The position numbers and the translations under genes were made by a program. The notes beneath the pieces are model-generated. The model worked only from the letters and a program-made list of their open reading frames with translations, made no database searches and had not been told where the DNA came from. From assembly GCF_041154675.1 (NCBI RefSeq), contig NZ_AP031322.1:992001-1056000 (forward strand): a stretch of DNA of 64,000 nt, in the 5' to 3' direction. The DNA is from Sulfurisphaera javensis (GTDB lineage Archaea; Thermoproteota; Thermoprotei_A; Sulfolobales; Sulfolobaceae). Each line of letters opens with the position of its first letter. Position 1 is the stretch's first letter. Below are positions 51,284-55,523 of this stretch, piece after piece.

Positions 51284-51423
51284 AATTTTAGTATCACTTT
51301 TGAATTGTTTTTATCCCTTTTTGCTCATGAATTAAATGGTAAAATTATCTTTCTCTTAAAAAAGATTTTCCCTTACTTATCTCAGTTTAGAAGTGTTGAG
51401 GAGTCAGACGAAAAGAAAAGAGG

Positions 51424-51496
51424 TAGCCGGGCAGGGATTCGAACCCTGGTCCGAGGGGCCAGAGCCCTCGATCCTTGACCGCTAGACGACCCGGCT
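51424..51496 (-). tRNA. tRNA-Gln (anticodon CTG)
   Basis: Cloverleaf drawn by eye on the minus strand: acceptor AGCCGGG/CCCGGCT with discriminator A, D stem with two wobble pairs, anticodon stem GAGGG/CCCTC, loop CTCTGGC giving anticodon CTG after T33, T stem CAGGG/CCCTG with TTCGAAT. 73 bases, no intron, CCA not encoded. A T-rich run follows on the minus strand (51407-51422). Confidence 0.92.
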
Positions 51497-53102: not shown

Positions 53103-54164
53103 CTAAAATTGATAAAGTTCTTCAGCATTTTTATAAAAGAATCTCTCCTCAATTTCTTTTAAATCTTTCTCGTCTATAAGGTCTCTCCTTATAAATTCTG
53201 ATTTGAGTTCCTCAAAACTTTCCTTAGCTAACTTTGCCCCTAACCATGCTATTTCTGGTACGTTAAACGCATCTGAACCATATAACACTTTATTAGCTGG
53301 GGAAACTTCAAAAATCTCCTTCATTACGTTAAATGTTGATAAAGGAGCAAAAGGATTGAATTGTGAAATATCTAAATAAACTGATGGAAATATATAGCTC
53401 ATCCAAGCTGATTCTCTATGGTAAGGATAACCAGCGTGAACGAAGACTATTTTCCCTTCGTATTTTCTTACTATATCAGTTAAATATGAAGGACGAGAGA
53501 GTTCAAATTTTATATCCCTATCTCCTGCACCAGTGTGAATTTGAACTGGGACTTTTAACTCTTTAGCAATTTGAAGTGTTTTACATACTAGATAATCTCT
53601 AAAGGCCTTAGCTTTTTTACCAAACCAGTCCCTTTCTTTACTATAAAAGTCTTCAAAGGCTTTACTTTCATTACAAGAAATTTTTAAACCAGTACGATAA
53701 GCTATTATTGTCTTAAAACCTACGTAGCCCTCTTTAACTTTACCTCTCAAAGTCTCTTCAAAGTACTCTATCGCTTTATCAAATGATTTCTTAAACAGAT
53801 CGTCATTTATAATTTTTTCAATTCTAAAAAGAAGTTTATATTTAACTGGTATTTCCATTTCTTTTTTGCCAAAGCCTTCATCAATTATAATCCCTTCTAT
53901 TCCAGCATCTTTAAAAAGGAATTTAACGTAATTTACTGGATCATCTTTTATCATTCTGTTTCTCTCTTCTATGAAATTCTCCCCCAAAAGCTTCTTTATT
54001 CTGTGTTTTAATGCTAGAAAAAACGGCTTCAAAAGATTCATTGTAACTACATCTGCATTTATCTCACCTTCAAGCCAACTTTCTGCAGTTGCTAAGGCTA
54101 ACTCTTTTTCACTCATTGGTTTAGCTGAAAACCAATGAGCATGATCATCAATTATTTTAAACAT
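53103..54164 (-). CDS. Amidohydrolase family protein (FluG N-terminal-like)
   Basis: 353 residues. The metal ligands of the TIM barrel are visible: DDHAHW at the start, QIHTGAGDRD, FVHAGYPYH and YGSDAF. It overlaps the glutamine synthetase-like gene upstream by 8 bases. The pair mirrors the two halves of fungal FluG, where amidohydrolase and synthetase are fused. Confidence 0.82.
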   Translation of the reverse strand: MFKIIDDHAHWFSAKPMSEKELALATAESWLEGEINADVVTMNLLKPFFLALKHRIKKLLGENFIEERNRMIKDDPVNYVKFLFKDAGIEGIIIDEGFGKKEMEIPVKYKLLFRIEKIINDDLFKKSFDKAIEYFEETLRGKVKEGYVGFKTIIAYRTGLKISCNESKAFEDFYSKERDWFGKKAKAFRDYLVCKTLQIAKELKVPVQIHTGAGDRDIKFELSRPSYLTDIVRKYEGKIVFVHAGYPYHRESAWMSYIFPSVYLDISQFNPFAPLSTFNVMKEIFEVSPANKVLYGSDAFNVPEIAWLGAKLAKESFEELKSEFIRRDLIDEKDLKEIEERFFYKNAEELYQF

Positions 54165-55437
54165 ATCTATACACTTCGTACTCCCAATCTGTTACCAAAC
54201 TTTCATATTCTTCAACTTCAGCCATTTTAACTTTTATAAACTCCTCTACAATGTCTTTCCCAATTCTTTCTACTAGTCTAGTATCCTTCTTTAACTCTTG
54301 TAGTGCTTCCCTTAGATTCCTAGGTATGTCCTCTATGTCCTTCCTATAGTATGCGTTTTCATTTACTGGAGTTGGCGGTTTTAATCCTCTTTCGATTCCA
54401 TCCATTCCAGCTTCAATAAATGCGGAAAGAAGTAAGTAGGGATTTGTTGTAGGATCTGGCACTCTGTACTCAATTCTTCTATCTTGCATACTCATACCAG
54501 GATAAGGAGTTGGTATTCTCAACATTGCACTTTTGTTATTATATCCATAAGTTATCTTTGTGGGTGCCCAAGATCCTGGAACTAACCTTTTATAAGAATT
54601 AATTGTTGGTGCAGAAATTGCAGCTAATGCTTTAGCATGTTCAATTATGCCAGCAATGAAATTGTAAGCTAAGTCGCTTAAACCGTATTTATCATTGCTG
54701 TTGAAAAACAAGTTCTTATCTCCTTTCCATATGCTAAAGTTTAAATGTAATCCAGAACCAGCCATTTTATTGAAGGGTTTTGGCATAAAGTTTGCTTCTA
54801 CTCCATATTTGCTTGCTACTTGTCTAGCTATTTCTTTAAATATTACAACTTCATCCGCACTTCTCATAGCTTCTTTATGTAAAATATCAAACTCATATTG
54901 TCCCGGACCATACTCTTTGATAACTCTAAGTGGTATTATCCCTACGCTTTTTGCTGTTTTAGCTATTTCTGGAATTATTTGGTTTGTATAATAAGCTCTA
55001 GAATCAAAACATCGTGCGTCGTCATAGGGTTTTTTGTCTTTAACTAAGTAGAACTCGATTTCAAATGAGGATTTGGACTCATATTCATTATATTTATCAA
55101 GTTTACTCTTAAGTAAACTTCTAGGGTCAAAAGTCCATGGAGAATCTCCTTTATATAAATAACATAATACCATAGCTGAAGGAGGAAAGATTGAGAGTGA
55201 AGATAAGTCTGGTTTTAAAAATACATCCTCATCTTGTGGTCCAAAACTACCATATGGAGAAATGTAATCCATTGGCGTAAAGCTCATCATTGCCATTGTT
55301 AGCCCAATTCCAGTTTTCACTAGACTATCAACTTCATCTACATATGCACCTTTAGATCTTATAAGTCCATCAAGACCAACCCATGTAAAACGTAAAATGT
55401 CCACGTTATTTTTCCTTAGTAATTCACTTACGCTCAT
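54157..55437 (-). CDS. Glutamine synthetase-like ligase (FluG C-terminal-like)
   Basis: 426 residues. Conserved blocks: FEIEFYL and YGPGQYEFD (metal-binding Glu residues), GSGLHLNFSIW with the catalytic-site His, NSYKRLVPGSWAP, and RRIEYRVPDPTTNPYLL. It is probably not the main assimilatory GlnA but a gamma-glutamyl ligase for an amine. A TATA-like box (minus strand, 55461-55468) lies 27 bases upstream, making the transcript leaderless. Confidence 0.85.
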   Translation of the reverse strand: MSVSELLRKNNVDILRFTWVGLDGLIRSKGAYVDEVDSLVKTGIGLTMAMMSFTPMDYISPYGSFGPQDEDVFLKPDLSSLSIFPPSAMVLCYLYKGDSPWTFDPRSLLKSKLDKYNEYESKSSFEIEFYLVKDKKPYDDARCFDSRAYYTNQIIPEIAKTAKSVGIIPLRVIKEYGPGQYEFDILHKEAMRSADEVVIFKEIARQVASKYGVEANFMPKPFNKMAGSGLHLNFSIWKGDKNLFFNSNDKYGLSDLAYNFIAGIIEHAKALAAISAPTINSYKRLVPGSWAPTKITYGYNNKSAMLRIPTPYPGMSMQDRRIEYRVPDPTTNPYLLLSAFIEAGMDGIERGLKPPTPVNENAYYRKDIEDIPRNLREALQELKKDTRLVERIGKDIVEEFIKVKMAEVEEYESLVTDWEYEVYRYV

Positions 55438-55465
55438 ATTTTTAATAAATGAAAAGGAAATTTAT

Positions 55466-55523
55466 AAGCAGTGATGAGGAAAGATTCTCTGAATGATGAG
55501 GAGGGTCTTGAGCGCTGATCTTA
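55466..55523 (+). ncRNA. C/D-box sRNA candidate (2'-O-methylation guide)
   Basis: Boxes in order: C GTGATGA (55471-55477), D' CTGA (55489-55492), C' ATGATGA (55493-55499), D CTGA (55515-55518). Guides are 11 bases (55478-55488) and 15 bases (55500-55514). A TATA-like TTTTTAATAAAT around 55439-55450 fits a start near 55467. The D'/C' spacer is essentially zero, which is shorter than usual; RNA targets were not identified. Confidence 0.6.

Follow-up and report, generated by a model that had tools for sequence, protein, structure and literature searches.

C/D-box sRNAs for position 34 of tRNA-Leu(CAA) and tRNA-Leu(UAA) have been described in Pyrococcus (reviewed in PMC7994747), and the methylation of C34 predicted for tRNA-Leu(CAA) went undetected in the tRNA set analysed by direct mapping in P. 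furiosus (Wolff et al., as given in PMC7668247). Pyrobaculum is reported to possess tRNA-targeting C/D sRNAs with one orphan guide (Lui 2018, via PMC7994747). In eukaryotes, C34 of tRNA-Leu(CAA) undergoes an intron-dependent methylation of the Trm4 type (PMC4090602). According to the review, most archaeal C/D sRNA genes overlap the ends of ORFs and only about 20% show a TATA-like motif within 50 nt of their upstream side (PMC7994747), and an sRNA with a promoter of its own therefore belongs to a minority, but a known one. No demonstration of tRNA-Leu C34 methylation in the order Sulfolobales was found in the literature searched.

The candidate sRNA of Sulfurisphaera javensis described here resembles the Pyrococcus sRNAs in class and target, being a C/D-box guide with position 34 of tRNA-Leu(CAA) as its predicted target; it differs from them in belonging to a different order, in which guides of the Leu(UAA) type are much rarer than those of the Leu(CAA) type (22 against 144 of 197 genomes). 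It shares with the Trm4 system the nucleotide, the isoacceptor and a nearby intron, but the Trm4-type enzymes are stand-alone proteins that work without an RNA guide. The top covariance-model matches, sR3 (RF01133; the best, 29.9 bits, E 6.8e-06) and snoPyro_CD (RF00095; 25.2 bits), cover the same strand and extent, but their scores fall below the 41 and 45 bits needed and their guides differ, so that the sRNA is not a member of either family. Since tRNA-Leu wobble guides are already known from Pyrococcus, the present RNA would be an additional member of an established kind. What it adds is a predicted tRNA wobble guide that is nearly constant across an order, whether the intron of the target tRNA is present or not.

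Methods

The window, which is the whole stretch of 64,000 nucleotides analysed (G000:C1:992001-1056000), comes from a 2.57-Mb single-contig genome, which resembles those of Sulfolobales in its gene content and its many tRNA introns. Possible targets of the D guide were sought in SSU and LSU rRNA and among all 46 tRNAs identified in this genome; a C/D target was taken to require a run of nine or more Watson-Crick pairs with rRNA or tRNA across the D+5 position, as stated in PMC4644070. Genomic contexts of sRNA homologues were surveyed at 60 loci with mechanically called ORFs of at least 80 aa, clipped at the locus ends; at three loci (L003-L005) the longest ORF begins upstream of the aligned ATG.

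Anatomy of the candidate sRNA

Searched over the two strands of the window, an expression describing the four boxes matched once, at the sRNA locus, with no match in 60 simulated first-order Markov windows, which confirms the C, D', C' and D boxes claimed in the original prediction. The boxes follow one another in the order C, D', C', D with guides within 8-16 nt (Table 1). The D'-C' linker has zero length, which is unusual.

Rfam searches at E<=10 matched many archaeal C/D families to the exact extent and strand of the sRNA, none of them at its gathering score. At the gathering threshold, the search of the window reported tRNA only and did not report the sRNA; the sole tRNA in the window is tRNA-Gln(CTG) (51422-51496, minus strand). 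The same-strand Rfam matches, the conservation in the genus and the order-wide patterns of guide and C box, described below, strongly support the reading of the locus as a C/D-box sRNA. It is probably a functional RNA gene that lies under the cut-off of every Rfam family and has a specific predicted target.

Table 1. Features of the sRNA locus and of the adjoining glutamine synthetase (GS)-like gene, with positions in the window and columns constant in the four-locus genus alignment
Feature	Position	Strand	Remarks
Candidate C/D-box sRNA	55471-55518	+	boxes read by eye and by script
C box GTGATGA	55471-55477	+	6/7 columns constant
D' guide GGAAAGATTCT, probable orphan	55478-55488	+	3/11 columns constant
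D' box CTGA	55489-55492	+	4/4 columns constant
C' box ATGATGA, abutting D'	55493-55499	+	5/9 columns constant (55493-55501)
D guide core GGGTCTTGAG	55503-55512	+	10 contiguous Watson-Crick pairs; 10/11 columns constant (55504-55514)
D box CTGA	55515-55518	+	4/4 columns constant
GS-like gene (Gln-synt_C)	54157-55437	-	ORF; Pfam PF00120, E 4.7e-105
Putative TATA element of the GS-like gene TTATAAAT	55460-55467	-	at the sRNA 5' end; 9/11 columns constant (55459-55469)
Putative TATA element of the sRNA TTTTTAATAAA	55439-55449	+	adjoins the GS start codon; 11/11 columns constant (55438-55448)

Conservation in the genus and across the order

In all four genomes of the genus this arrangement recurs ahead of the same GS-like gene, the product of which is 87-88% identical in the other three. 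Constant columns are concentrated in the boxes, the D guide and both TATA elements; the D' guide and the DNA downstream of the sRNA drift (5 of 44 downstream columns are constant), and the spacer between the two TATA elements keeps 4 of its 10 columns. Such a pattern would be expected of a functional sRNA locus in which one of the guides and both promoters work. The C' box is clear in two of the congeners (G029 and G030) and degenerate in the third (G028). Conservation of the boxes in relatives, on which the original prediction had been made to depend, is thus found in the genus alignment for both the boxes and the D guide, and it extends to the order-wide patterns.

A BLAST search of the family with a 64-base query gave few convincing matches because little besides the D guide is conserved. 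The weak matches include two further four-box sequences of C/D type, the guides of which are unrelated (L043 and L053, in G001 and G029), and a plasmid search returned only short matches at the level of chance. The guide together with its D box, GGTCTTGAGNNCTGA, was searched for as a pattern and occurs in 144 of the 197 order genomes (reversed-pattern control, 2 of 197) and in 30 of the 31 family genomes. With a C box required upstream (TGATGAN{18,45}GGTCTTGAGNNCTGA), 112 of the 197 genomes still match, against none for the control, and the S. javensis genome contains one copy. Two guides altered at a single base occur far less often: GGTCTTAAG, a form that would suit tRNA-Leu(UAA), was found in 22 of 197 genomes (control, 6) and GATCTTGAG, which would perfectly fit the spliced exon, in 12 (control, 8). 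The sRNA thus appears, from these pattern searches, to be the version that the genus has of an order-wide tRNA-Leu wobble guide of a kind already known.

The only family genome without the exact guide and D box (G016) has its tRNA-Leu(CAA). At least four order genomes (G185:C15, G065, G092 and G182) carry two copies of the guide and D box, which in G185 lie about 860 bases apart on the same contig; such pairs may represent gene duplication or redundant assembly.

Predicted target of the D guide

The target had been left open by the original prediction, which had proposed that both guides be matched to rRNA and tRNA. In this matching, the D guide fits tRNA-Leu(CAA) at its anticodon loop, and C34 of this tRNA is now proposed as the target; the D' guide is without a good one. 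On the precursor of tRNA-Leu(CAA), the D guide forms 10 contiguous Watson-Crick pairs with C32-G37 and the first four bases of the intron (ACCC), above the nine required of a C/D target, and the D+5 nucleotide, 55510, faces and pairs with the wobble C34. The pairing with the mature form extends over positions 32-41, with 10 pairs including one G:U and a Watson-Crick run of 7. Across the 46 tRNAs, LSU and SSU, the second-longest run made wholly of Watson-Crick pairs is 7. Taken alone, this complementarity is modest evidence, because 7 of 300 shuffled guides also reach 10 Watson-Crick pairs. The boxes, the conservation, the complementarity and the register on C34 are all directly visible in the sequences, and the D guide most likely directs 2'-O-methylation of the wobble C34 of tRNA-Leu(CAA).

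When G:U pairs are allowed, runs of 10-14 also form with tRNA-Ser(CGA), tRNA-Leu(UAG), tRNA-Leu(UAA) and LSU site 1042, and therefore tRNA-Leu(CAA) is not the sole possible target and side targets are possible. It could accordingly be proposed that the same sRNA acts mainly, through G:U pairs, on another class II tRNA, at C34 of tRNA-Ser(CGA) or U34 of tRNA-Leu(UAG), with tRNA-Leu(CAA) as a secondary target. Mature tRNA-Ser(CGA) pairs with the D guide over 11-12 nt, G:U included, and s2Um34 of tRNA-Leu(UAG) has been reported in S. acidocaldarius (in PMC7668247). Guide position 2, which faces tRNA position 31, is C in all four members of the genus; it suits G31 of tRNA-Ser(CGA), tRNA-Leu(UAG) and tRNA-Leu(CAG) and is a mismatch to A31 of tRNA-Leu(CAA), which tells against perfect pairing with the latter within the genus. 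However, the same position is T in 104 of the 112 order homologues and pairs with A31 of the S. javensis tRNA-Leu(CAA), guide bases 6-7 (TT) match the AA of its anticodon exactly but pair by wobble in the other candidate tRNAs, and a long run of Watson-Crick pairs alone is formed with tRNA-Leu(CAA) only. A main target other than tRNA-Leu(CAA) is hence considered rather unlikely. In four genomes of other genera (G008, G010, G021 and G022), the guide ends in TC and forms 12 contiguous Watson-Crick pairs with the S. javensis pre-tRNA.

The run on the precursor reaches into the intron, and guide positions 10-11 (GG) could pair with an intron starting with ACC. A strict pattern that matched 61 of the 197 genomes and passed over many tRNA genes gave 67 rows for tRNA-Leu(CAA); after seven non-tRNA rows (G012, G015 and G113) were dropped, 60 genomes were left, 43 with an intron in this tRNA and 17 without. 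The intron begins with ACC in only 18 of the 43 cases, and 16 of the 17 genomes with an intronless tRNA-Leu(CAA) keep the same guide, as counted by hand among the matches listed. A guide tuned to the intron is therefore rejected: the guide is kept where the intron is absent and so neither tracks nor depends on it. Guide G10 can wobble with U39.

The evidence from boxes, conservation and pairing makes it highly likely that the locus encodes a TATA-driven C/D-box sRNA guiding C34 methylation of tRNA-Leu(CAA), with an orphan D' guide and with any promoter interference as a by-product. An sRNA of about 55 nt would be transcribed from the plus strand under its own TATA promoter and, as in other members of its family, would assemble with L7Ae, Nop5 and fibrillarin. 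Once its D guide had paired with tRNA-Leu(CAA) in the anticodon loop, fibrillarin would 2'-O-methylate C34 by the D+5 rule. The guide may also accept a G:U pair for tRNA-Leu(UAA) and may weakly reach other Leu and Ser isoacceptors. The sRNA promoter would be interleaved head-to-head with that of the GS-like gene, any interference between them being regarded as a local by-product until shown otherwise.

The putative interleaved promoters

The centre of the TATA element TTATAAAT lies about 26 nt upstream of the start codon (ATG) of the GS-like gene, and the transcript of this gene would, given such spacing, be leaderless. The original prediction had recognised this element, which does exist, but had placed it at 55461-55468, one nucleotide away from its correct position (Table 1). 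The element TTTTTAATAAA is centred 24-28 nt before the inferred 5' end and C box of the sRNA, in agreement with the TATA spacing of 24-30 bp given for S. acidocaldarius ncRNAs (PMC12817955). The two elements face each other, each at the inferred start of the other gene, and are kept in all four genus genomes with a drifting spacer; this anatomy is as originally described, and it is plausible that both elements function as promoters. No description of promoters interleaved head-to-head was found in the literature searched.

It was also considered whether the interleaving constitutes a functional switch, in which TBP/TFB bound at one gene would block the other and couple wobble methylation to the GS-like enzyme. 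The mutual position of the two elements and their retention throughout the genus are in its favour, but each TATA element is required by its own gene and their conservation does not demand coupling. Furthermore, the guide and D box are found upstream of just 4 of the 22 GS-like orthologues examined, all four in Sulfurisphaera, a survey that does not extend to the nine genomes of the family whose GS paralogues are all of lower identity and that includes one locus with only 657 bases upstream (L014) and one partial match (L023); a fifth orthologue has the guide 9-mer upstream but without the D box. A conserved pairing of the GS-like gene and the sRNA beyond the genus is rejected on this survey. 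In other genera, the homologues among the 60 loci overlap the 3' ends of co-directional ORFs, adjoin other genes or stand alone; in a few of them, too, a divergent ORF lies no more than 80 nt away. The association of the sRNA with the GS-like gene is, as judged from its distribution, not ancestral, because it is limited to these 4 of 22 orthologues and the sRNA has other contexts in other genera. A regulatory link between the two, such as the competition for polymerase or TBP put forward in the original prediction, is possible as far as their anatomy goes, but a functional switch is considered unlikely. A fuller version, in which the only copy of the guide in the genus and the GS-like promoter would be mutually exclusive and form a two-way switch between leucine decoding at UUG and nitrogen or amine metabolism, appears very unlikely.

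For the preferred reading of an sRNA with a promoter of its own, the simplest history would be that the sRNA came to sit behind a pre-existing GS promoter in the genus, because sRNA-less GS-like orthologues of other genera (L017-L020) keep a similar element, AAATT(T)ATAA(G/A), at about the same upstream distance. The overlap of promoters at the level of a genus offers a small natural test of whether mutually occluding archaeal promoters matter.

The GS-like protein falls under all the NCBIfam GS equivalog cut-offs. Its gene overlaps the next one, which encodes an Amidohydro_2 protein, by 8 bases in an operon (53103-55437, minus strand), a layout that resembles that of two-domain amidohydrolase-GS proteins. 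Such two-domain proteins are FluG-like.

The D' guide

The D' guide was rejected as an rRNA or tRNA guide; its longest Watson-Crick run is 7 (in SSU) and it is not conserved in the congeners. It is probably an orphan in the genus. This lack of conservation, the sub-threshold Rfam scores and the zero D'-C' linker could be taken to mean that the box motifs are a chance occurrence or a decayed, unexpressed remnant, a view hardly tenable against the 0 of 60 simulated windows, the genus-wide conservation of boxes and D guide, and the guide and D box in 144 of 197 genomes.

As compared with the Pyrobaculum tRNA sRNAs, the order homologues outside Sulfurisphaera often keep a CTCGG core in the D' guide, just after the C box (64 of 112); this core is absent in Sulfurisphaera. 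In the GCTCGGG form of the relatives, 7 nt of the D' guide are complementary to the D-arm in both tRNA-Leu and tRNA-Ser, a 7-mer match only, hinting that the ancestral RNA may have touched two parts of one tRNA.
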